Origin: a virus
Reading direction: 5' to 3' (one strand)
IMG/VR virus record: IMGVR_UViG_3300009124_000050
Location: 1 to 34,196 of that record
Length of the DNA: 34,196 bases
Position 1 is the first letter of the stretch. Each line of letters begins with the position of its first letter. Below, piece after piece: positions 13,042-33,844 of this stretch. Under the pieces are notes generated by a model. The model did no database searches. It saw nothing but the letters and a program-made list of their open reading frames with translations, and had not been told where the DNA came from. The position numbers and the translations under genes are program-made.

Positions 13042-16000
13042 ATGGCAACATTCACGTTTGATACTACAGCAGTCAGAGACTACACCATTGTTGATAATGG
13101 TGGATTAGATAATGCAGCTCCAGTAACTCTGAGTGCATCAGACTTAACCAACCTTCAGTATACTACTGATGGTGATGTTGTGTTGTCTCAAAATGGAAGT
13201 GGTACTCTGTCAAGTGGTGGTTTTGCCATCGGAGAACATCTTAGATTTTCAACAAATATTGGATCCAGATGGTTCACATTTACATATGATGCAGTTATCT
13301 ACAACCAGATAGAAATTACTGGTATTAAGGGTAATGGTAGTAATGGCGGCGAAGAACCAGACTCTGGAGAAAACTTAATTTTACAGTATCTTGATGGTGG
13401 TGGTAATTGGGTCACTATAAACACTATCATTGCAGAGAATGATACTACTTTTAATACGATAAACACTGCTGTCATTGCACTTCCTCAGGCAGCACAGAAC
13501 AACAATCAAGCATTTAGACTTTATCAAGAAAGTGCTAGTGGAAATCCATATGATCACTACGGCATCTCGTCAATTACTTTTACTGAAACAGTAAGTGGAG
13601 GATCGTCAACAGAAGATTATGGTTTAATTACTACAACAGCAACAGCAACAGAAGAATATCAAGAAATTGTCTTTACTGACGTAGCATATCCATTCGGTAA
13701 GGCAAAGATTTCTGGTGGAGCACAAGCAGCAGTATCATCCACTCCACCAACTAGAACTGTAGAAATAAAATCCCAGGGCATCTCTACTAAAAGCAGTACA
13801 TCAGTTTGGGTTGGATCTGGAACAGCCTTTGAAATGGCTGGTGGTCAAGAACTTATTGTCGCACCATGGACGGTTGCTTCTGGTGTCCTTCGCACATACA
13901 GAACTACCAACTCTTTTGTTGGTAGTGGTGATATTTCTATTAGAGATAGATATCAAATTGAGAATACTACCAAGCAAGAAAGAGTAGTAACTCAAATAAG
14001 TGCGGATCCTGAAGAATATGAAGTATCATACATCAGTGTTCCAACTGTTAGAGAAATAGATGAAGATGTTCGTTTCTCTCCATCATACAACACTTCATCT
14101 GTTGAATACTTTGAGGACGACACAGATTATGGTTCTGTTACCCAGTCCTCTTCCACTAATTTAGATAATGGTAATCTCCAAGAAGGAAGTTACGGCGGTG
14201 CTGACTATGGATTAGTCAACGTAACTCAGGACGATTATCCATTCCTGCCTGCACTCAATGTATATGGAGATGCAGTAACAAATTATTTACCAGTATACAC
14301 CGAAGAAGGTACTGGTTTATTCAACTTTATTGGAGAAGCAAAATCAGAATTTAAACCCAACTGGAGGGGTCGTGGTGGAATCTTTGTTGCAGGTTCAGCA
14401 CAAGATTCGTTCGTCAGACCAGCAGTTATTGAAGGTGGATCTATCGTATCCTTCAATGAGTCTGATAACTCTGTTTCCTACAGATATACAGAAACTTCTG
14501 TTGAAGAATTTGATTCCAATGACTTTGGTCAGATCACAGCAACTGGTTCTGCATCTGACTATGGCACAGTAACTGAAGGATCTTATGCATCCTTTGATTA
14601 TGGTTATGTATTCAACATTGATACTGTTGAACCATTTGGTTTATTCTCTCTGCAAGGATATGCAAAATATGCTTATAAACCAACATTCACTCATCATGGT
14701 TCTGGAAGTATCAGCATTTATGACCACTACACATTCACCAAATTCAATCCTCATTGGAGAGGACGTGGTGGATTCTCTATTAGTGGTGGAGAAGGAGATG
14801 TATTCAGTCGCCCAGCAGTTGTTGAGGGCGGATCTCTCGTATCCTTTAATAAGTCTGCGAACTCTGCAGCATACTCTTATAATGAATCTTCTGTTGAGGA
14901 ATTTAGTTCCAATGATTTCGGACAGATTACTGTCTCAGGATCCTCTACAGATTATGGAACAGTCACAGAAGGAGCATATGCTGGATTTGATTATGGTTAT
15001 GTAATTAATACTGATATTGTTGAACCATATGGTCTCTATACATTCAGTGGTTCTGCTACAACTTCGTTCAAACCAACATTTACTCAGATTGGTACAGGTC
15101 TCTTCACCATCTCTGGTGTATCTGAGAACGAATTCAAACCACACTGGAGAGGACGTGGCGGAATTGTTCTTTCTGGCGGTGAAAGAGATGTATTCAGTCG
15201 TCCAGCAGTTGTTGAAGGTGGATCCATTGTATCCTTCAATGAATCTTCCAACTCTGCAGCATACTCCTATAACGAGTCTTCTATTGAACTGTTCTCTGAT
15301 ACTGACTTCGGTCAGATCACAGCAACTGGATCTACGACTGACTATGGTTCAGTAACTGAAGGATCGTATGCTGGATTTGACTATGGTTATGTATTCAACA
15401 CGATTGATCAATATCCTCTTGATATCAATTCACTGTTCACCATCAGTGGTGTTGCTAATGTTGAATATAATCCAGAACTGAAGCAGATTGGTGATGGTCT
15501 TTATAATGTTACTGGTGTTGCTGAGACTGCCTTCTTACCACACTGGAGAGGACGTGGTGGAATCATTGTTTCTGGTGGAGAGGCAGATTCTGTTGTCAAG
15601 GTATTCACTGGAACAGGATCTCTCTTCAGTGTCATTGATAGCGAAGAGAAGGCAGCATACTCTTATAATGAGTCTTCTATTGAACTGTTCTCTGATACTG
15701 ACTTCGGTCAGATCACATCCACTGGATCTACGACAGATTACGGAACAATCACTGAAGGATCCTATGCTGCCTTTGATTATGGTTATGTAGTTAATGTTCT
15801 GGATGCATATCCTCTTGATATCAATTCACTGTTTGCTATCAGTGGTGTTGCTAATGTTGAATATAATCCAGAACTCTCTCAAACTGGTAGTGGTGGTTAC
15901 AACTTTGTTGGTGTTGCGGAGACTTCCTTCTTGCCTCATTGGAGAGGACGTGGTGGTCTCTTCCTCAGTGGCGGAGAAAGAGATTCTATTATCAAATCCT

Positions 16001-19000
16001 TTACTGGAACAGGATCTCTCTTCAGTGTCATTGATAGCGAAGAGAAGGCAGCATACTCTTATAATGAGTCTTCCATTGAGTTCTTTAATAATGTTGATCT
16101 TGGTACAGTCACAACAACTGGAACGACAGTTGATTATGGCAACCTGATTGATGGATCTTATGGTGGTCTTGATTATGGTTATGTGGTCAGCACTCAAGAT
16201 GATTATCCTCTTGATATCAATTCACTGTTTGTCATCAGTGGTTCTGCTGATGTTGAGTTCCTTCGCAATCTCATGCAGATTGGAACTGGTCTTTACAATG
16301 TCAGTGGTGATGCCAGGACTATCTTCAAACCTAATTGGATTGGTAGAGGTTCTATCAATCTTACTGGCGGAGAAAGAGATTCTGTCGTTAAGGTATTCAC
16401 TGCTACTGGATCTCTCTTCCACATCGGTGAGAAAATTGAAAGGGCAACGTTTAGTTACAATACCTCTTCTATTGATTACTTCAATGATCTTGATCGTGGT
16501 TCAGTCACGAACAGTGGATTACAAGAAGACAACGGATCGGTTGCAGAAGATTCTTATGCAGGATTTGATTATGGCACAGTAATCAATACCAGTGACACTT
16601 ATCCATTCGGTAGTATCAGTATTTCTGGTGGAGCGGCAGATGTAGCTGAACTGAAGGTAATTGTTGGTGGTAATCTCTTCGGATTTGGTGGTGCTGCTGA
16701 GGCAGTCTCCTGGCAGACTCCAGAAAATACTGCACTTTACAGCTTTAACGGTGGATACAGCAACCTCAAAGCATCTGTATCTGAAGTTGGTAGCGGAAGT
16801 CTCTTTAACTATAAAGGTCAATCTGCGCCAGATGACTTTACATTCCGTCCTCATTGGAGAGGTAGCGGTGTTCTTAGACTGTCTGGCGAAGAGGGATATA
16901 TTCGTCTCAGAGAATTTGTTTCTAGACAAGGATCTATTTCTGTCGGTGGTAGTGCTCATGAAGCATTCGTCGCACAGACTCCAGAAGATACCGTCCTCTT
17001 TACATACTCTGGAACCAGAGGTTCAGAAAAAGCAACTACTGCTGAAGTTGGTTCTGGTTCACTGTTTGCTATCGGAACACTTGTTGAAGCTCAGACAGAC
17101 TTCTATACAGTTCCAGTATCTACATCATTGTTCGGTGTATCTGGTGCTGCTGGTGTTGCTCAGGCAGATGATTATACTTCTCGTGATGGAACGCTCAAGA
17201 TCTACACTGATGATACAACGTTCAACTATAGAAATTATAGACCATCTCCTCGTTATGTCAATTCCGAATATGGATTTATTGGTGGTCAACTCAATATCGC
17301 TGGTGAACTTGATGAGGCAGTTACACAACCATACATTGGTTCTGGAAATGTAACGGTTTCTGGTGATCATGTAATTGAACTTACTAAGTTCTTTGCTGGA
17401 ACTGGTTCTTTCAATACTCTTAGTGGTGCTGCAGAATCCAGAGCAATTGCCATCAATGCAGAAACTTCTCTCTACAGAGCATTTGGTTCTGGTGATGACT
17501 CTGTTACTAAGACTAAAATTGGTTCTGGTTCACTGTTCACTGCTGGAGGAGCTGCAGAATCTAGAACCTTCGCTAAGTCGGTAACAGGTCTCTTCAGTAT
17601 TGCTGGTGATCAAACTGATACAAGATATGTACCTAACTTCAATGGTTCTGGTACACTTTCCGTTATCAATTCTGCTGATGATGCATTCAGTAGAATCCTT
17701 ATCGGAACTGGAAGAATCTCCACATTCTCTGGTGGCGCTGAAGCATTTGTTGCTCAGACTCCAGAAAACACAGCACTTTATTCTTTCAACGGCACTGCAA
17801 CAGAGTCGTTCAGCAAAGGAAATTACGACGGAATTGGATCTGTATTCACATCTGGATTCTCTACAGAGAAGCAGACAGATGCATATGCAGGAACTGGTTC
17901 TCTGTTTGCTGCTGGTGGCGCTGCAGAATCCAGAACGATCATCGCAGAGGACAACACAGTTCTCTTTACGATCAATCTGAATACAGAATATGTATTCATT
18001 CGTGGACCATATCCTGCTGGCGGTTCTCTGTTTGCTGCTGGCGGTGCCGCAGAAGCATTTGTCGCTCAAACTCCAGAGAACACAGCACTTTATACATTCT
18101 TCGGAAACAGACTTTCAGAGAAGAAAACATCCAGAGAAGTTGGATCTGGTTCATTGTTCACTGCTGGATCTGGAGCAGAGTCTCGCATTATCAGTCAAGT
18201 TGCGAAGACAGTTCTCTTCGCACTTACTGGATCTGCAGAAGAATCCTTCAGTCAAGCTCCATACAAAGGAAGCGGTTCTCTGTTTGCTGCTGCTGGAGCT
18301 GCCGAAGCATTCTCGGCACAGACTCCAGAGAACACAGCACTTTACACATTCTTCGGCAATATACTCAACGAATCTAAGACAACCAGACTTCAAGGTTCTG
18401 GTTCACTCTTCACATTCGGTGGATCTATTGAAAGATCTACTGTTGCAGAAGAATCAACTGGTCTGTTCTCAATCTCTGGAGCATCTGAGTTCAAATTTAC
18501 CAGAGGGGCATATCCTTCTTCTGGTTCCTTGTTTGCTGCTGGTGGTGCTGCAGAATCCAGAACGATTATTGCAGAAGACAATACTGTTCTGTTTACTGCA
18601 TCAGGAACTGCAGTTGAAAGATTCACTAGAAGTTCCACTACAAAATCTGCTCAGTACTCTTTCTCAGGCGAGCTTACCGAAAAGAAAACTTCTACAGAAG
18701 TTGGATCTGGTTCACTGTTTGCTGCTGGTGGTGCTGCAGAAGTCGCAGTGGTCGGAGCAGAATCCACTGGTCTGTTCAACATCAACGGTTCTACTGATGA
18801 TACGTTCACAAGAACTGTTATCGGATCTGGTTCACTCTTCTCTGTTGGAAGTGCTGATGAAGCGAAGACTACCTTCGTCCCAATTGATCCTGGATTCTAC
18901 AGACTGGTTGGTAGTGCAGATGAGTCGTTTACTCCTGCTCCACACATTGGATCTGGATCAGCAACTCTTTCTGGAACAACCTCACCAGAAATTCGCACTC

Positions 19001-19284
19001 TTGCTAAGCACGGATCTGGTGTTGAAACTATTTCTGGCGAAGGATATATTACACGCACATTTGATTATGAAGGATCTGGTGTTATTACACTCTCTGGTCA
19101 GACAGAATTCAAACTTAAGTATCAGACAGATGCTACCACAATTCTGTTTACTTATCAAGGTGGCGAGGACGATGCATTCACGAGAATTGCTAGAACCAAC
19201 ACTGCTGAAATTAGAATTGATGGAGAATCCGAGAACAGATCCATCCTCTTTACACCTCCAAGAATATTCGGAACGATTATATAA
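13042..19284 (+). CDS. Giant repeat-built virion or fibre-like protein
   Basis: This is a 2080-residue protein. Residues 1-185 form a beta domain (NLILQYLDGGGNWVTINTII, FRLYQESASGNPYDHYG) resembling the sheet-rich extracellular domains of the reelin or F5/8 style. Residues about 340-1270 are a tandem array of ~130-residue units marked by H/N-W-R-G-R-G-G, Y-N-E-S-S-I/V-E and DFGQITATGS followed by DYG. Residues about 1250-1935 switch to a shorter repeat marked GSGSLF, AAGGAAE and ENTALYTF. A last block (to 2080) has G-S-G-V-x-T-I/L-S-G repeats. No catalytic or membrane motif is seen. Ribosome site is weak (AGG at 13034-13036). Likely an elongated fibre or decoration built by repeat duplication (inference). 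Similar GSGSLF proteins occur, as I recall, in cyanophages. Confidence 0.75.
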   Translation: MATFTFDTTAVRDYTIVDNGGLDNAAPVTLSASDLTNLQYTTDGDVVLSQNGSGTLSSGGFAIGEHLRFSTNIGSRWFTFTYDAVIYNQIEITGIKGNGSNGGEEPDSGENLILQYLDGGGNWVTINTIIAENDTTFNTINTAVIALPQAAQNNNQAFRLYQESASGNPYDHYGISSITFTETVSGGSSTEDYGLITTTATATEEYQEIVFTDVAYPFGKAKISGGAQAAVSSTPPTRTVEIKSQGISTKSSTSVWVGSGTAFEMAGGQELIVAPWTVASGVLRTYRTTNSFVGSGDISIRDRYQIENTTKQERVVTQISADPEEYEVSYISVPTVREIDEDVRFSPSYNTSSVEYFEDDTDYGSVTQSSSTNLDNGNLQEGSYGGADYGLVNVTQDDYPFLPALNVYGDAVTNYLPVYTEEGTGLFNFIGEAKSEFKPNWRGRGGIFVAGSAQDSFVRPAVIEGGSIVSFNESDNSVSYRYTETSVEEFDSNDFGQITATGSASDYGTVTEGSYASFDYGYVFNIDTVEPFGLFSLQGYAKYAYKPTFTHHGSGSISIYDHYTFTKFNPHWRGRGGFSISGGEGDVFSRPAVVEGGSLVSFNKSANSAAYSYNESSVEEFSSNDFGQITVSGSSTDYGTVTEGAYAGFDYGYVINTDIVEPYGLYTFSGSATTSFKPTFTQIGTGLFTISGVSENEFKPHWRGRGGIVLSGGERDVFSRPAVVEGGSIVSFNESSNSAAYSYNESSIELFSDTDFGQITATGSTTDYGSVTEGSYAGFDYGYVFNTIDQYPLDINSLFTISGVANVEYNPELKQIGDGLYNVTGVAETAFLPHWRGRGGIIVSGGEADSVVKVFTGTGSLFSVIDSEEKAAYSYNESSIELFSDTDFGQITSTGSTTDYGTITEGSYAAFDYGYVVNVLDAYPLDINSLFAISGVANVEYNPELSQTGSGGYNFVGVAETSFLPHWRGRGGLFLSGGERDSIIKSFTGTGSLFSVIDSEEKAAYSYNESSIEFFNNVDLGTVTTTGTTVDYGNLIDGSYGGLDYGYVVSTQDDYPLDINSLFVISGSADVEFLRNLMQIGTGLYNVSGDARTIFKPNWIGRGSINLTGGERDSVVKVFTATGSLFHIGEKIERATFSYNTSSIDYFNDLDRGSVTNSGLQEDNGSVAEDSYAGFDYGTVINTSDTYPFGSISISGGAADVAELKVIVGGNLFGFGGAAEAVSWQTPENTALYSFNGGYSNLKASVSEVGSGSLFNYKGQSAPDDFTFRPHWRGSGVLRLSGEEGYIRLREFVSRQGSISVGGSAHEAFVAQTPEDTVLFTYSGTRGSEKATTAEVGSGSLFAIGTLVEAQTDFYTVPVSTSLFGVSGAAGVAQADDYTSRDGTLKIYTDDTTFNYRNYRPSPRYVNSEYGFIGGQLNIAGELDEAVTQPYIGSGNVTVSGDHVIELTKFFAGTGSFNTLSGAAESRAIAINAETSLYRAFGSGDDSVTKTKIGSGSLFTAGGAAESRTFAKSVTGLFSIAGDQTDTRYVPNFNGSGTLSVINSADDAFSRILIGTGRISTFSGGAEAFVAQTPENTALYSFNGTATESFSKGNYDGIGSVFTSGFSTEKQTDAYAGTGSLFAAGGAAESRTIIAEDNTVLFTINLNTEYVFIRGPYPAGGSLFAAGGAAEAFVAQTPENTALYTFFGNRLSEKKTSREVGSGSLFTAGSGAESRIISQVAKTVLFALTGSAEESFSQAPYKGSGSLFAAAGAAEAFSAQTPENTALYTFFGNILNESKTTRLQGSGSLFTFGGSIERSTVAEESTGLFSISGASEFKFTRGAYPSSGSLFAAGGAAESRTIIAEDNTVLFTASGTAVERFTRSSTTKSAQYSFSGELTEKKTSTEVGSGSLFAAGGAAEVAVVGAESTGLFNINGSTDDTFTRTVIGSGSLFSVGSADEAKTTFVPIDPGFYRLVGSADESFTPAPHIGSGSATLSGTTSPEIRTLAKHGSGVETISGEGYITRTFDYEGSGVITLSGQTEFKLKYQTDATTILFTYQGGEDDAFTRIARTNTAEIRIDGESENRSILFTPPRIFGTII
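15274..15321 (+). repeat. 48-base exact direct repeat, copy 1
   Basis: Identical to 15670-15717, at an offset of 396 bases, inside the tandem array of the 2080-residue gene. Confidence 0.9.
15607..15677 (+). repeat. 71-base exact direct repeat, copy 1
   Basis: Identical to 16003-16073, at an offset of 396 bases. Both copies encode the segment ending YSYNESS. Confidence 0.9.
16003..16073 (+). repeat. 71-base exact direct repeat, copy 2
   Basis: Second copy of 15607-15677; the same reading frame is kept, as 396 is divisible by three. Confidence 0.9.
16780..18850 (+). repeat. GSGSLF-type short coding repeats
   Basis: About eleven copies of a G-S-L-F core followed by a Gly/Ala-rich AAGGAAE turn, often with QTPENTALYTF between copies. 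Near-identical DNA recurs, for example the QTPENTALYTFFGN coding stretches at about 18068 and 18319. Confidence 0.85.
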
Positions 19285-19581: not shown

Positions 19582-22500
19582 ATGGCAAAAAGATTACTTT
19601 TTGATTACGAATTTACACCCGCGTTAAATAAAATTGTAATCCCTGGTAATATTAACCAGAGAAGACTGCTGGTAGTTACCAATACCACGGACAATATTAT
19701 TATCTACAACTTTGCTGATCCTAATCAGACAGCAACGTTCTCATTTGATACTGAGAAAGAAGAGACAACTCTGATTCTTGCTTATGACTGTTCAGCAATG
19801 GACAGCACCGATGCTCTTCAGATTTTTGAAGAATCAGAAGCAGTTCACTTTGAACCATCTGAAACTTATGTTGACCCTGTATCAAAGTTCAGAGTATCAA
19901 ATCCAGAAAACCTGATTGATACTGACTTTGAGTATGGTCCTCAGGCATCTAAGTGGGAAACACTTCAGCTTGTTAACAATATTCCTTCATCATATTCTAG
20001 TTCTTCTGATACCACGATTCCTAACATCGTTTCGGTTCAGTCAACTCAGAACTCTGATATTGTTCTTGTGACGACTCTTTATGAGCATGATTTGATTGCT
20101 GGTACTCCTATTGACGTTAAAGGTCTTTCCAATCCTGGAGCTGAGGGTAACTATCTGATTCAGTCAGTTCCTACAGAAACGACTTTTACTTATCGTTGTA
20201 GAGAAGTTCAGGGAACATCCGATAACTTAGCTGGTGCTTACACATCTGTTATTCCAGGTCAGTTCTATTCCAACTCTCAGATCAACTTAGATTCACAATC
20301 TGGTCTTCTCTCTGATACGAGAACTTACGAAGTTTCAACTCCATATGGAGAATCTGGCGGATATTATATTGATAACGTAGTAAAACCAGATATCACTACC
20401 AATAAGAATGGTATCTACTACTTTAATATGAATTCCACTGAGTATACATCTCATCCATTCAGATTTGCTGATCATGGTGAGTTGCAAACTCTTGCTTCTA
20501 ACGAAGCACCAATGGGTCTTTTTGATAAAAAGATTGTTGGCATTGCTAGTGATGGTGTTAAAGTTGTTGCACTTTCAGAGGACGGTGAAGTTTATGATAA
20601 CGATGATCTTCTGGTAAAATCTCTTGGTCAGACTGCTGCCAACTGGGAGTCAAAACCAATTGATACCACAGCAAAAATTAAATCAGTAGCTTATTCTTCT
20701 GAGTTAAAACTGTATGTTGGTGTTGGTAATGCCGAAGAAATTTGGTACTCCTATGATCTTAGAGAGTGGACTCAAAGCTCCAGAACTCCTAACGCAGCAA
20801 ATGATCTGAGAAGTGTTATTTGGTCTGCAGAGAAGTTCCTCTTCATGGCAGTTGGTACAAATGGTGTCATTCTTACATCACCAACTGGAATTGGTGATGA
20901 TTGGACTGTAAGAGACACTGGTATCACTTTAACTGATATCCACCAAGAAGTAATTTGGGCAAAAGAATCTGAATTGTTTGTTGTTGTTGGCAGTAACTCT
21001 GCTGGATCTTCGGGCAGAATTTACACTTCTCCTGATGGTGTCACTTGGATTTCAAGAACTTCTAACATTTCAGTACTTTTAAATGGAATTAAGTGGAGTG
21101 CTGATATTGGTCTTTACGTTGCCGTTGGTGCTGGCGGTGCATTGACTACATCTCCTGATGGTATCACTTGGACCTCCAGAACATCTGGAACATCAAATGC
21201 CTTGAATGCTATTGATGTTTCTTTCTATAATGGTGTTTCAACATTCCTTGCTGTTGGTGTTGCTCAAACTGCAATTACTTCTACTGATGGTCTTACTTGG
21301 GCTACTAGAGTAACTGGCACGACTGGTGAACTTACTGATGTAATTTGGGATGCAGATAATTCATCCTTCAAAATTACTGATGTAAATGGTAAAGTTATCA
21401 CCACTGACCAGGACGCTCAGACATATACTGACATTTCTGTAGCTGGTCATAGACTGGACAGAATTGTTTATAGTGGATTTACCTATTTCGTATTCAGTGG
21501 AGACGGTGGTCTTGCTGGTACTCAGGCATATTTTGCTAAGAGACAAGAGTGGTCATCTCTGACAACCATTGCTGCTAGTGGTGGTGGAGTAACTACATTC
21601 CGCAAACTTATTCATGCAACAGATTCTCTTGGTCAAGGTTATTATGTAGCAGTCGGTGAAAATAGTATTGGTGGAAATGGTGTAATTATTACATCAACAA
21701 ATGGAACTTCCTGGAACGAACAGCAGACAGCATCCATTCCTGATGACGGATTCTACAATGTTGAATTTGTTGTAGACACATGGTATTTCTTGGGAAATAA
21801 TGGATTATATTCCACCCAAGACTTCACTGCATGGACAACTGTAGTTCTTAGAGAATCTGTAATTGACACTTTCACTGGCGGCAGTTCAACCGATGCCACT
21901 AGATCTGAAGGCACATACAACAGTATTGAAGGAACTACTAATGGTAGTGGAAATGGTGCCCTATTCAATATCAGTATTGATGGTCTTGGTGTTACTACTG
22001 TTACCATGGTCAATGCTGGTATTGGTTATGCTGCAAGTGACACTATTGAAATCAGCAATGCTAATTTTGGTGGTACTGGAGGAGATATTACTCTTACAAT
22101 CCAGACTCTCACATCAACCACTACTGGATTTAGAGATTTTGTACTTATCCAAGGTGCTGCTACAATCGTTGGTAACGGAGGAAGAATTTGGTATTCTGCT
22201 GATCTTGCTGATTGGAGTGTTGGTAAGATTACAACAGAGAATGCTACATCCACAGCAACTACGGGCACAACGTATAATCTTACTTCAACATTTGATCAAG
22301 CTGGTGACTATACCGTTGCTGGAACAGATTCAAACGGTGCAGTCTCTGGATATGATCCTGCTATTACTACGAGACTTGGTGATACTCTAACATTTGATAA
22401 CTCTGCGACTTATAGTGCCCACCCAATGTACATCAGAGTTTCTGATGGTGGTGCTAGTGCATCTGGTGCAACTGGAGAAGGAACAGCTACAGTTTCGTTT

Positions 22501-25500
22501 ACACCAACAACAACTGGCGTTTATTATTATCAGTGCTCAGTTCATGGCACCATGCTTGGAATCATCAATGTTCTTCCTTCATTGACTGGTGTTACCAGCA
22601 CAGGAACAGATTTCCCAACATCACTGAACTTCCATGCAATTGCATATGATTCAACTCTGAATAACAGATATGTTGCTGGTGGTAACGGTGGTTTCTATTG
22701 GTCACAGAATGGTCATGAATGGTATGTAGCATCTTATATACCAGACCTGGATGATGTAACTGTTCATGATCTATATCATGATGGTGTAAGATTCCTGGCA
22801 GCTACAAAAAGAAGTCTTGCCAAGCCTGGTCAGACATATACCACAACACCTTACCTCCATGAAATCTTGGGTTCGTTTGATGGTAAGAATTTCATGCGCG
22901 AAGAAACTCCATTAGTTGGAGATGCTTCAGGAAATGTTGATGGATCAACTGGAGGAAATACAGATTATTATAGTACTATCTTCTCTTATATTGATCCTAT
23001 TGGTACTGACATCTACGTTTACTTTGGTTCGGAGAGTGGTAGAATTGATTTAATGACTGATAGTGTCGTTCCATATACAAAGGACGTTTATTATCATACT
23101 GCTGCTGGAGAAGATCACTACACCAGACTTTATGTAACGACAGCGACTCCAAACAACATCTTCTATTACTGTGCTACGCATGGTCTTACTATGGGTGGAA
23201 ACTTGTTCTTAGATCAAGTTTCTAGTTCTAACGTTTACATGAAGACTCTTGATGAGAATGGATTCTCACAAGGAACTGACTTCTATATTGTCAATACAAT
23301 TTCACCAAAAGTTGTTGAAATTTTTGATGGTACTGCAAATGCTCCTGATGGAAGACCATACATTGATACTGAAGAAACACTCAATGTTGATTTCCAAGAT
23401 GATAAAGAGTTAACAGAAGTAAGAGATTATGAACCATCATATGTTCTGAAATTTGACGAATCGCAGATTAACGTTGCTTCTAGAACCATCACATTTGCTG
23501 AAGATCATAAATTAAAAGATGGTTATGCTCTCTTCTATTATACTGCTCCTGGAGATAAACCAGTCGGTGGTATGGCATCAGGACAAGTTTATTATGCTGA
23601 CATTGTTGGTGCTAAATCAATCAAACTGACTCAGTGTGGATTCTCTACATACGAGAAGAAGAATGAGGGTGACTTCCCCGTACCATTCCACAGATGGTCT
23701 CAGGTTAACCGCCTTAAGGCACAAACTAATGATGGTAATACCAGTGGTCAAACTGGTAGTGCCTACTTCGGTCGTAACGTTGCAATGAGTGGTGATGGCA
23801 ATTATCTCATCATCGGTTCTGACCATGATGATTCTTATGGTTCTAACCGTGGTGCTGCTTATATCTTCAAGAAAGAAAATGGTTCTTGGAACATTAAGCA
23901 AAGAATCGGTGGTGGATCTGGTAACTCAAACAGTGACCACTTTGGTTGGTCCTGTGATATTAACTACGATGGATCAGTTGTTGTAGTTGGTATTCCTTAT
24001 GATGATCCAGCTGGAACAGATTCTGGTAGAATTCACATCTGGGAAAGAAGTGGTGAGTCCTGGTCACAACCCGCAACTGCAACTCCACCAGATAGCAATA
24101 ACTATCAGTATTTCGGTAGACAGGTTTCTATCAACGGTGCTGGTACTATCATTGCTGTTGGTGCATATAATAGAGACCAAGGAGGCAGCGATCGCGGAGA
24201 AGTTTATATCTACACTTATGACATCGCTGGCAATTCACTTTCTTTGGAAGCACAGATTCAACCAACTGATGGTACTATCTCAAATAGCGACTACTTCGGT
24301 TCTTCACTTTGTTTAGATAAGACTGGAACCAAGCTTGTTGTTGGTGCTGAGCGTGATGACCAAACAATTTCAGACAGTGGTTCTGCATATTACTTCTACA
24401 GATCTCCTGGATCTCCATTTACATGGACACAAGGACAAAGACTGAATTCTCCAAACCCATCATCTAGTGCTTACTACGGCAACTCCATTTGTATCTCTCC
24501 TGATGGTACTGTTCTTGCTGTTGGTTCATATAATGATGATACCTACGGTTCTAACTGGGGTGCTGTTTACATCTATGACTGGAATGCTGCTAGTTCAACT
24601 TGGGATTATTCCGAAGCAATTGGACCCGAGCTTCCTGCCACCACCAACAACAATCAAGGTAAGTCAAGTCTTTACTTCAGTTACTCTGAGTCTCAACATG
24701 GAAGAACAATTGGTCTGAGTGATGATGGTTCTATCATTACTGTTGGTTGTGGATGGTATGATGTTAATGGCATCAACCGTGAAGGAACTTGGAGCAATGT
24801 TGGTGCAACATATGTATTTGAAAGATCCACAGGTTCGTATGTTCTTGAAGCAAGAATCCTAGGAACACACTCCAGAGAAAGTTCTTATATGGGATGTTCT
24901 GTTGACATCTCCGAAGATGGTAACTACATTGTTTCTGGTGCTTATAACGAATATGAGTACGGTCCTACAAACATGGGTGCTGCTTATGTCTTTGATGGAA
25001 CCACTGCCGATCATGGTGCTACATTTACTCACGGTAAGCATAATCTGGGTCTTTGCTACAGAATTGCTCGTGAGTCTCACTCTGGTAACAGAAATGACCA
25101 CTATCTGTATACCGCATACTACGCTATGCGTGCTCAGAACATCTATTCCAGCACACCTGATTATCGTAACATTTCTGGTTATGACTTACAAGAGTTTGGT
25201 TCAAACTCCTTCGGTCTTTCTGGAACTGGCGGTCCATACGGATCTACTGATAACGTTGATAACACTTACTTCATTACTCCATACAGAACTGGTCCTGGAT
25301 ATCCAAGAGACTGGACACATATCGGTGGTGCAGGACACTTCGGTGAAGATTATAGAGAGCAAGTTAACTACGGTAGAAGTGCCTGGTGGGGATATGGAGA
25401 CATTCTTCCATTCATGAGTCCTATGAGAAGAACTGGTCTTTTCGGAAGAAATGACTTCATGACTGATGATAAGACAAACTCAGCAAGATATAATGCTCTT

Positions 25501-28500
25501 GGACCATGGGGATCTGGAGACAGTGATATTGCTCCTCACTATGACAGAGTATTTGGTAATAATAACAATCCTTATGTTTATACTACCAATAATGATTATA
25601 TTAACCACAGAGCATCTTACTCCTATGCATGGTGGTATTACTCTGGTGGATACTTCACTGGTCAACACAACTACTTCAGTGGTTGGGGCGATAACTGGAG
25701 TGGTAACTACTATCTGATTCCTCTCAGAAGACTTGTTGAGAAGAACTCTTTCTATTCTGCAGATCATGGTCTTAACACCAATGATGAGGTTCAGTATGAA
25801 GTAGTCTCAGGTCAGACAATTAAGTTCTTAGATGGTACTGGTTTTAGAAACTCACCAATTAATGAACTTTCTACACCAAGACAGATCTTTGTTGAAAAGG
25901 TTGATAATAATAGATTCCGTATTAAGACATCCACTAGTGGAAATGCTCTTAGAATTATGGAAGCAAACGGTCAGTATAGATTTACTGGTACTGTTGTTAA
26001 CTTTAGAAAGAACTCATTGTTTGTTGACGCACATAACTTGTCAACAAACAATGCTCTTCTCTATAACAACGAAGGTATTACACCAATTGCTGGTCTGACA
26101 GATAACACTCTGTATTATGCTAATGTTCTGAACGCAGACAGATTCCAGTTGAGAACTGCTGTTGGTAAGAACTTCAATGGTAATATTAGTGCAAATAGCA
26201 ACCAGATTACTGGTATGACTATTAACCCACAGAATGAACTTACTACTGGTCAGGTTGTTACTATCATCGCCAATGGTGATACATTGAGTCTGCCAACTGA
26301 CACCACAATTCAAACGATTAATAATAGCACAACAATTACGTTGTCTAATACATTTAGTGGTAGTGGAACAATCAACGGCGTCAGCTTTAACTCTGGTCTT
26401 CCTGAAGAAGATCTTACGGGTAAAGGTGCTGGTCTCCAGGCATTTGAAGATCAAACAACTGACTTCGGTGTTTCTGACGGTGGATTTAAGAACACATATA
26501 TCGTTGACGAAAAAACTCTTGAAGTTCGCGTTCCATTTAAGATCCGTCCTTCTAGAAAACTGTTTGATGCTAATTCAGATGTTAATGCTGGTGCAGATTC
26601 CATCACAATTGAGAATCACTTCTTCAAGACTGGTTCTAAGGTAATCTACAGTTCCTTCGGTAATCCAGCTCTGCCTGGTTTAGATGACAATAAAGATTAC
26701 TATGTAATCGTTCTTGATGATGAGCAACTGAAGCTCGCACACTCTTATTCTGATGCACTTGCTGGAAATGCTGCTGATATTACCGCCGCTGCTGGTTATT
26801 CCCAGGAGCATGGTTTAATTCACACTAACGTCGCTGGTGACATTGTTGGTAGCGGTTCAATTGCGATTGAAGATGGTTCTAGAATCGTTATTGGTACTGA
26901 TACTAACTTCAAGCGTTACTTCAAGGTTGGTGATTCGGTAACATTTATTGACACCACCACTTCTCCTGGTACGTTTATCACGAAGGAAATCACAGCTATC
27001 AAGGATGACTTTGAGATGCTGATGGATACCAACTTCGCAACAACTGATCCTAATGGTAAGTATTTGATCGGAACCCTGGTCTACACACGCCCTGATGGTT
27101 ACTATCTGCATAGACCATTTGATGGTGGTATGGAGATTGGTACTTCTAAGTCTCCTGACGGTCTCATCTGTCGTCAGACTCGTAAGTACTTCCGTTATCA
27201 GTCAGGTAAAGGTATTCAGACTTCGTTCGCGATCAACTTTAATCCTCTGACTCCTGCTACAAGTGCAGTTTACTTTACTGCTGCTTCCAGTGGAGATAGT
27301 ACTTCTGGACACTATATTAGAATTTCAACTAAGTACGCACATAACCTCAATACTGATCTTGATATTACTCTCGCACAAGCAAATGAAGAAGAATTTAATG
27401 GAAGTTATGCCGTTACTGAAATCGTTAACGACTTTGAATTCGTTGTTGACGCTGTAAATGCTAAACTTGCCACTCAGGCAACTGGATTCTTCGGTTATCA
27501 CATCGTTCAGTGGGCAAACTCCAACGTTCGCGCTGGTATGTTTGACTTCCAGAATGGATTCTTCTTTGAATATGATGGTTCTATACTTTATTGTGTAAGA
27601 AGATCTGCAACTCAGCAGATGACTGGTGTTGTTAACACAGTACATAATTCTAACGCGATTACTGGTACTGACACGAAGTTTACAACTCAGTTAGCATTCG
27701 GTGATAAGATTGTTGTTAGAGGACAGACCTACAAGGTTGTAAAAGTAACTTCAGACACTTTGATTAAAGTACAACCTTCTTATAGAGGTTCTACTACAGA
27801 GAACGTTATCATCACGAAGGTTATTGATACTCGCGTTCCTCAGTCTGAATGGAACATTGATAAGTGTGATGGAACAGGTGCTACTGGTTTCTCACTGGAT
27901 CTCACGAAGATTCAAATGTGCTACGCTGACTACTCCTGGTACGGTGCTGGTAAGATCCGTTTCGGATTCAAGGATCAGAACGGACATGTTAAGTACATCC
28001 ACTCATTCAAGCACAACAACCGCTTGACTGAATCTTACTTCCGTTCAGGTAACCTGCCTGCGCGTTATGAGATTGAGAATATCGGAACTCCAACGTTTAT
28101 TCCATCTCTGTTCCACTGGGGTACTTCGGTCATTATGGATGGTCTCTTCCAGGATGACGAATCATACGTCTTCACCGCTTCTGGCAACGTTCAGAAGTTC
28201 ACGAACACAACCTCTACCGCTGTTACGCAAAATGCTAACTCCGCAATTCTTATTGAATACGCGGGTTCGGGTAGATACAGATTCTTCATCAGAATTCCAT
28301 TCCCATCAGCTAATGCATCAACTCTGACAACTGGTACTCTGATCTATAACGAGACAACTACTGGATTCCTCCAAGATTACTTCAAGGAAGGTAGAGCAAT
28401 TGACCGTAGATCGTTTATCTCTGGATCTACGTTCTACGCATACATCCAGTACGTTGATGGAAGTGGATCTGATTCATATTCATACAGACCATACATCAAC

Positions 28501-32569: not shown

Positions 32570-33844
32570 ATGGCACAGTGGAATAAGAAAACACAATCCT
32601 TTCTACCGCAGGAAACATCTTTATTTGAAACTATTAATATTGCTGACCACTGGGGTGAGCAAACTGATTGGAGACCACAGTTTACTGGTAAGAATAGATT
32701 AAAAACATCTCCATATCAAACAACTTTCTTTAACACCTTTCAGTATGGTTTAGAGACAGACATTTGGGAAACTGATATTACTGGAACTGCCTCTGCTGTT
32801 CACAATCCCGATGCTTCCAATGTCACGATGTCAGTTGGCAGCACTGCTGGTGACAAAGTAATCAGACAAACTCGTCAGGTAATGAGATACATTCCTGGCA
32901 GAACATCCACCTGCTCTTTTGCTATTCGTTTGGAAACTCCAGTAGCAGGAGTTCGCAGAAGACTTGGTATATTTAACGAAAATAATGGTGCCTACTTTGA
33001 AGATGATGGTAGCACCTATGCTTGTGTCCTTCGTAGTAAAGCAACTGGTAGTGTAGTAGAAACCAGAGTAACCAGAGATAACTGGAACGGTGATAAGTTA
33101 GACGGCACTGGTCCTAGTCAGATTACTATTGATCCTACTGCCATTCAGATGATCAACATTGAGTATGAATGGTATGGTGCTGGACAAGTAATCTTCACTT
33201 ATACTATTGGTGGTGAAACTCACGTCATTCATAAGTTTAACACCGCAAACTATATCAATAATGTTTGGAGCTCCACTCCGTTCCTTCCTATTCGTGTTGA
33301 GTTAGAGAATGTAACTGGTGCTGCTGGAACTCATTACATGTATCAAGGTTCTAACTCTCTAATCCAAGAAGGAGAGCCAGAAAAACTTGGCACACTGGTT
33401 AGTTATGCCAACCCCATCACTGGCACTACACTGGTAGCAGCAAATACATTCTATCCTGTTTTAAGTTTGCGTCTCAAACCTGCCGACCTTGCTGGTATTG
33501 TATTACCAAGGTCTCTACAGGTAGCAACAAACGATAACACGAATGTATTCTGGAGACTGGTTGAGAATCCAACTCTTACTGGTGCTAGTTGGACGGATCA
33601 TCCAAACCCAGATGCGATTACTCAGATTGATACTACTGCGACTGCTTCTACTGGTGGTGTAGTGCTTCTATCAGGATTTACTGTTGGTGGTGGTGCTAGT
33701 CTGATTGAACTTGATACAAAAGCAGGATTACAGATTGGTAGAAGTTCATTGGGAACGGTGAGTGATATCTACACTCTAGAGTGTGCCTCTCCCAACACTA
33801 ACAAAGCAGCACTGGCAGTCCTCAACTGGTTGGAGCAAAGATAA
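32570..33844 (+). CDS. Virion protein paralogous to the giant protein's C-terminus
   Basis: This 424-residue protein starts MAQWNKKTQSFLPQETSLFE. Residues about 130-260 (NNGAYFEDDGSTYACVLRSK, WNGDKLDGTGPSQITIDPT, YEWYGAGQVIFTY, IRVELENVTG) align by eye with the C-terminal part of the 3167-residue protein (FFFEYDGSILYCVRRSA, WNIDKCDGTGATGFSLDLT, YSWYGAGKIRFGF, ARYEIENIGT). The two diverge at the end, here IYTLECASPNTNKAALAVL and a WLEQR finish. The fold looks lectin-like, a jelly-roll by pattern only. GAGGTG at 32560-32565 provides the ribosome site. Probably a virion surface protein (inference). I recall that this domain is widespread in cyanophage structural proteins. Confidence 0.73.
   Translation: MAQWNKKTQSFLPQETSLFETINIADHWGEQTDWRPQFTGKNRLKTSPYQTTFFNTFQYGLETDIWETDITGTASAVHNPDASNVTMSVGSTAGDKVIRQTRQVMRYIPGRTSTCSFAIRLETPVAGVRRRLGIFNENNGAYFEDDGSTYACVLRSKATGSVVETRVTRDNWNGDKLDGTGPSQITIDPTAIQMINIEYEWYGAGQVIFTYTIGGETHVIHKFNTANYINNVWSSTPFLPIRVELENVTGAAGTHYMYQGSNSLIQEGEPEKLGTLVSYANPITGTTLVAANTFYPVLSLRLKPADLAGIVLPRSLQVATNDNTNVFWRLVENPTLTGASWTDHPNPDAITQIDTTATASTGGVVLLSGFTVGGGASLIELDTKAGLQIGRSSLGTVSDIYTLECASPNTNKAALAVLNWLEQR

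Follow-up and report, generated by a model that had tools for sequence, protein, structure and literature searches.

Residues ~897-1000 of a giant viral protein of 3167 residues form a true cupredoxin domain with a complete predicted type-1 copper site, as judged from structure prediction and homology. The protein is encoded in the window, i.e., the whole stretch of 34,196 nucleotides that was analysed (IMG/VR record IMGVR_UViG_3300009124_000050, positions 1 to 34,196). The cupredoxin site recurs in phage particle proteins, namely in Prochlorococcus, Synechococcus, Pelagibacter and Methylophilales phages, and marine phages may well carry copper on the virion surface. Coordinates of all features are presented in Table 1.

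Table 1. Location of the features in the window, with the evidence for each
Feature	Position	Strand	Evidence
Giant virion protein P0001, 3167 aa	19582..29085	+	ATG-start open frame; PHROG virion matches, C-terminal part
Possible N-half of second cupredoxin, aa ~255-300, H291 in SHPFRF	20344..20481	+	family profile, weak
Repeat region aa ~318-1150, BNR/WD-like blades ('YVAVG..GGALTTSPDGITWTSRT'), probable beta-propeller(s)	20533..23031	+	visible repeats
Inner cupredoxin domain, aa ~897-1000	22270..22581	+	AlphaFold2, Foldseek, phmmer, profile matches
His947, predicted first type-1 Cu ligand	22420..22422	+	codon cac; column 88 % His in 43 diverse representatives
Cys985, predicted Cu ligand	22534..22536	+	codon tgc; 93 % in 43 representatives
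His988, predicted Cu ligand	22543..22545	+	codon cat; 93 % in 43 representatives, top column for conservation
Met991, predicted axial Cu ligand	22552..22554	+	codon atg; 91 % Met in 43 representatives
C-half of second cupredoxin, aa ~1160-1210, C1197, H1200, M1204, C-x2-H-x3-M	23059..23211	+	family profile
FG-GAP_2 repeats, six stretches, approx. aa 1450-1800	23929..24981	+	Pfam PF14312, 6.8e-45; limits approximate
Conserved virion structural module, aa 2435-2836	26884..28089	+	phrog_5838

Fold and ligands of the inner domain

AlphaFold2 modelled residues 891-1003, with an alignment of 46 copies from the window and IMG/VR (A2) as input, as an all-beta structure of nine strands (mean pLDDT 94, pTM 0.87). 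The best 50 matches listed by Foldseek against the PDB were all cupredoxins/type-1 copper proteins or multicopper enzymes, with E-values of 2e-5 for a three-domain Cu-nitrite reductase, 2.5e-4 for rusticyanin and 6.2e-4 for pseudoazurin; small laccases were found too. TM-scores were moderate, about 0.4-0.55 on the query, and the domain is therefore a divergent cupredoxin. On sequence only, phmmer retrieved pseudoazurin (3.6e-4) and amicyanin (8.9e-4), while a 12-row profile against the PDB matched Cu-nitrite reductase (8.5e-11), rusticyanin (1.9e-7), amicyanin (2.3e-7) and plastocyanin, the whole set ranging from 1e-10 to 1e-6. Copper-bind was the best Pfam family across the members of the profile and was matched by nine of the twelve, the NCBIfam amicyanin model by ten; the window domain itself scored 13.1 bits, below the Copper-bind (PF00127) gathering threshold of 21.2 bits. 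The cupredoxin fold proposed in the preliminary description is borne out by the confident prediction of a Greek-key beta-sandwich and its matches to type-1 copper proteins, and the structure prediction suggested there as a check left this reading standing. His947, Cys985, His988 and Met991 follow each other in the order His, Cys, His, Met/Gln and are conserved in the family; from the fold and the homologous positions, we infer that the four predicted ligands converge on one site.

These four residues had been described as H-x37-C-x2-H-x2-M, and their positions were confirmed. The giant protein contains only 15 cysteines. Shuffles of the same protein yielded C-x2-H-x2-M in 11 of 2000 cases and H-x25..60-C-x2-H-x2-M in 5 of 2000, a rarity (<1 % of the shuffles) that by itself is suggestive, not decisive. 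A chance motif with no cupredoxin fold behind it would fit a single match arising in about 0.3-0.6 % of shuffles, but it is contradicted by fold, homology and ligand conservation. The AlphaFold2 model, the Foldseek matches and the column conservation rule it out, leaving it a probability close to nil.

An iterative search, covering about 100 loci of marine viruses plus nine regions of cyanophages, gathered copies of the domain. Among 131 distinct full copies, 104 carried the ligand set HCHM, 11 HCHQ and one HCHL; the remaining 15 had other sets, and for some of these the alignment covers the C-half only. Ranked by entropy over 43 representatives with <55 % identity to each other, the four ligand columns held places 1, 2, 4 and 5 of 96, a Tyr near the Cys completing the top five. 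Were the ligands placed at random, the probability of finding the whole set among the top five would be about 1.5e-6. It is this conservation that decides whether the motif is real. The C-x2-H-x2-M loop was present with Met in 97 and with Gln in 11 of 116 parsed copies, C-x4-H-x2-M in seven, and the spacing between His and Cys varied across the family (median 45 residues between, range 37-68). Glutamine is the natural axial ligand of stellacyanin, a type-1 copper variant, and the Foldseek list included rusticyanin M148Q and M148L (PDB entries 1e30 and 1gy2). By analogy with these proteins, changes from Met to Gln or Leu would be tolerated variants; the main natural substitution, Met to Gln, should leave a usable site, since stellacyanin uses Gln and the rusticyanin structure 1e30 carries it as well.

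A count of ligand conservation, proposed together with the first description, revealed that the homologues do not shed the ligands freely. In some lineages Cys and His are lost jointly (HNTM), which is expected if the pair is retained for metal. Both residues are gone in L053, L058, L068 and L071 (FYNVTTAGMG) with the remaining domain present. The full ligand set can thus be dispensable in some copies: 15 of the 131 lost ligands while the domain persists. Such degenerate copies (HNTM, KCHM) would suit a relic cupredoxin, a beta-sandwich used purely for adhesion or as spacer like the Ig domains of phages, its ligands surviving by recent descent; phage fibres often recruit beta-sandwich domains. 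The ligands, however, are the most conserved columns among copies down to 20-30 % identity, and the change to Gln retains a usable site. The adhesion-only relic, raised as an option in the preliminary description, is hence disfavoured and appears quite improbable, and predicted copper binding is much better supported, because ligands are not freely lost.

A site for another metal (Zn, Ni, Fe), or an apo structural site with copper irrelevant in the ocean, is unlikely, somewhat less so than the relic. Type-1 sites take Zn, Ni and Co in vitro, free copper is nearly absent from the cytoplasm in which virions assemble, and the identity of the metal is read from sequence and model. Against another metal stands the conserved axial Met or Gln, Met being a soft ligand typical of copper; for apo use, retention of the complete set across the 43 diverse representatives would be unexpected.

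The giant protein and a possible second cupredoxin

Towards its C-terminus, the giant protein matched the virion structural phrog_5838 (4.9e-178) and phrog_1645. The module of residues 2435-2836 was present in 173 phage records, mostly of Synechococcus phages. The giant gene adjoins gp13/gp14/gp15/gp16 homologues. It is followed downstream by counterparts of gp13/head-tail adaptor, head closure, tail sheath stabiliser and terminase small subunit. The gene order in P-HM1 is alike, the equivalent slot being occupied by PHM1_104, a protein of 1832 aa with two cupredoxin-like domains. Because of this shared gene order and the cyanophage virion module, we infer from homology that the source virus is a T4-like marine myovirus and that the 3167-residue protein probably forms part of the particle. 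In the earlier term 'phage fibre protein', the virion part is supported by the PHROG matches and the gp13-gp16 neighbours; the label itself is partly interpretation. Two further proteins of the window are of note. A 424-aa protein (32570-33844; phrog_1645) has ~110 aa in common with the giant protein's C-terminal part and resembles an internal paralogue. A 2080-aa protein (13042-19284) consists of degenerate repeats, e.g., 'GSGSLFAAGGAAESR' and 'HWRGRGG', and its sole match was phrog_11522, function unknown.

The inner cupredoxin sits inside the propeller-like repeat region, between blades of what is probably a beta-propeller. In a low-confidence model, residues ~365-600 showed blade-like strands with pLDDT 70-80, and propeller-type matches were found in other phages; a search for relatives of the propeller region returned none. 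The FG-GAP_2 repeats constitute an integrin-type propeller in the same protein, downstream of the inner cupredoxin.

A second cupredoxin, split into two halves, may plausibly enclose the propeller region and the inner cupredoxin. The C-half is well supported, with the family profile matching residues 1146-1222 at i-E-values of 1.3e-6 in the window and 2.2e-8 in a homologue (L002), and a second profile at 6.8e-5; this stretch has the Cys-His-Met half only (CATHGLTM). The N-half is weakly supported, with family-profile i-E-values of 0.018 in the window and 0.034 in the L002 homologue, and 15.7 bits as an isolated piece. A marine-subgroup profile gave 6.8 bits for the N-half in another homologue (L103) and nothing above 2 bits in P0001, the best of 300 shuffles reaching 7.4. 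Between the candidate halves lie ~860 residues, which include the inner cupredoxin and the propeller. Joined, they scored 43.6 bits as a single domain versus about 22-32 bits in controls with shuffled or unrelated N-halves. A model of residues 235-1225 from a six-row alignment had a mean pLDDT of 46, too poor for a judgement on the split cupredoxin; the search for relatives of the outer C-half returned none, that for the N-half only the contig of L002. Three cyanophage copies (L165, ORF aa 590-756; L166, aa 867-1027; L167, aa 666-814) contain an insert of ~80 aa ('STTGI..GM'). All three inserts lie in the same loop, after the His strand and ahead of the Cys strand, and the loop therefore tolerates insertions.

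Occurrence in phages and bacteria

The occurrence of the cupredoxin is far wider than the single protein noted at first. With the window copy as query, 31 INPHARED records were retrieved, all from Prochlorococcus, Synechococcus or related marine phages; a more diverged copy retrieved 135 records, Pelagibacter and Methylophilales phages among them. Annotations of the phage proteins with copies read tail fibre, baseplate wedge or virion structural. Eight named cyanophage genomes (181-252 kb) among ten records searched had two to five matches each, in ORFs of up to 4460 aa, and IMG/VR contributed at least 420 relatives. The family profile assigns a functional label to many proteins listed as 'hypothetical' or 'virion structural'.

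Cellular relatives came almost all from marine Flavobacteriaceae and other Bacteroidetes. In the bacterial forms the cupredoxin either makes up a small lipoprotein entirely (about 140-150 aa) or lies at the C-terminus of a surface protein. Two relatives, L117 (22.3 bits) and L108 (25.7 bits), exceeded the Copper-bind gathering score. L117, L111, L144 and L148 are single-domain marine Bacteroidetes proteins of about 140-155 aa, most with a lipobox-like start, and apparently unstudied. In an unrooted tree, bacterial copies group amid the viral copies, and the label phage or bacterium takes three changes. An exchange of the domain between phages and bacteria, in either direction, is likely. A contig of a Euryarchaeota MAG (L152) holds a phage-like ORF with multiple cupredoxins, grouping with a Synechococcus phage copy, and is probably a mis-binned phage.

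Proposed role and comparison with known systems

The explanation that we consider rather probable as a whole is an inner cupredoxin with a type-1 site in which copper captured on release stabilises a surface module of the virion. The apo-domain would fold in the reducing host cytoplasm while the virion assembles, and copper would be captured at lysis, from copper proteins of the host, or in seawater. The bound metal could lock the beta-sandwich into a rigid, durable surface module of tail or fibre, which would support contact with the host. Electron transfer may occur as a secondary function; it is ranked behind stabilisation since no redox partner is evident. A site for electron exchange, either on the surface of the host or with reactive oxygen, for example in triggering adsorption or protecting the virion, would explain why the complete type-1 ligand set rather than a generic metal site was retained; the hosts are photosynthetic, and cyanophages carry the plastocyanin gene petE as a separate gene (PMC3037559). 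Such a redox role is nevertheless doubtful: a partner domain or docking patch was not identified, the domain lies between propeller blades of a giant protein, and ligands are missing in some copies. Copper stabilisation of the surface module is therefore the favoured reading. The boldest extension, with only a small chance of being correct, is that virions of marine T4-like phages bear arrays of redox-active type-1 copper centres, several per genome, on fibres and baseplate wedge for host-surface chemistry or copper transport from cell to cell, the giant protein having one centre nested in the split cupredoxin (H291/C1197/H1200/M1204). Provided that copper does bind, virions in the sea would form a copper pool and carrier so far unrecognised, and the domain a new class of copper protein, located on viruses.

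Cupredoxins are familiar as mobile electron carriers and as enzyme domains. The spacing C-x2-H-x2-M is that of amicyanin, as described before, and the amicyanin loop CTPHGFM aligns with CSVHGTM of the window copy. The likeness in the distance from His to Cys, also pointed out earlier, holds in so far as both are nearly equal in the window copy; it is not diagnostic, and because the distance varies within the family it is no evidence of descent from amicyanin. A relation to amicyanin in particular was not borne out, as the same loop spacing is common to the whole virion family. The window domain scored 17.3 bits with the NCBIfam amicyanin model (TIGR02657) against a curated cut-off of 110.2, and membership was rejected. 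General PHROG and Pfam scans of window proteins, from what is a contig fragment, brought up no methylamine genes. The domain thus shares with amicyanin (PDB 1aac, 3ply) the cupredoxin fold, the His/Cys/His/Met ligands and the loop, but amicyanin is a free periplasmic carrier for methylamine dehydrogenase, whereas the window domain is embedded in a virion protein. The plastocyanin/azurin family PF00127 is the best Pfam family of the members and its threshold is exceeded by cellular relatives, while the viral copy is sub-threshold and one domain within a huge multidomain protein.

The open-access literature, with subscription journals and preprints outside the scope, yielded no description of a cupredoxin in a phage virion. 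A cupredoxin encoded by phage is known in the cyanophage plastocyanin PetE, an auxiliary metabolic gene product; it is a small stand-alone protein from a separate gene and serves host photosynthesis (PMC3037559), whereas the domain described here belongs to virion proteins. A transition-metal site on tail proteins of marine phages was proposed in the 'Ferrojan horse' hypothesis, e.g., for the tail fibre of Alteromonas phage R22Y; the metal proposed there is iron (PMC11705849), in contrast to the type-1 copper ligand set and the cupredoxin fold predicted here.
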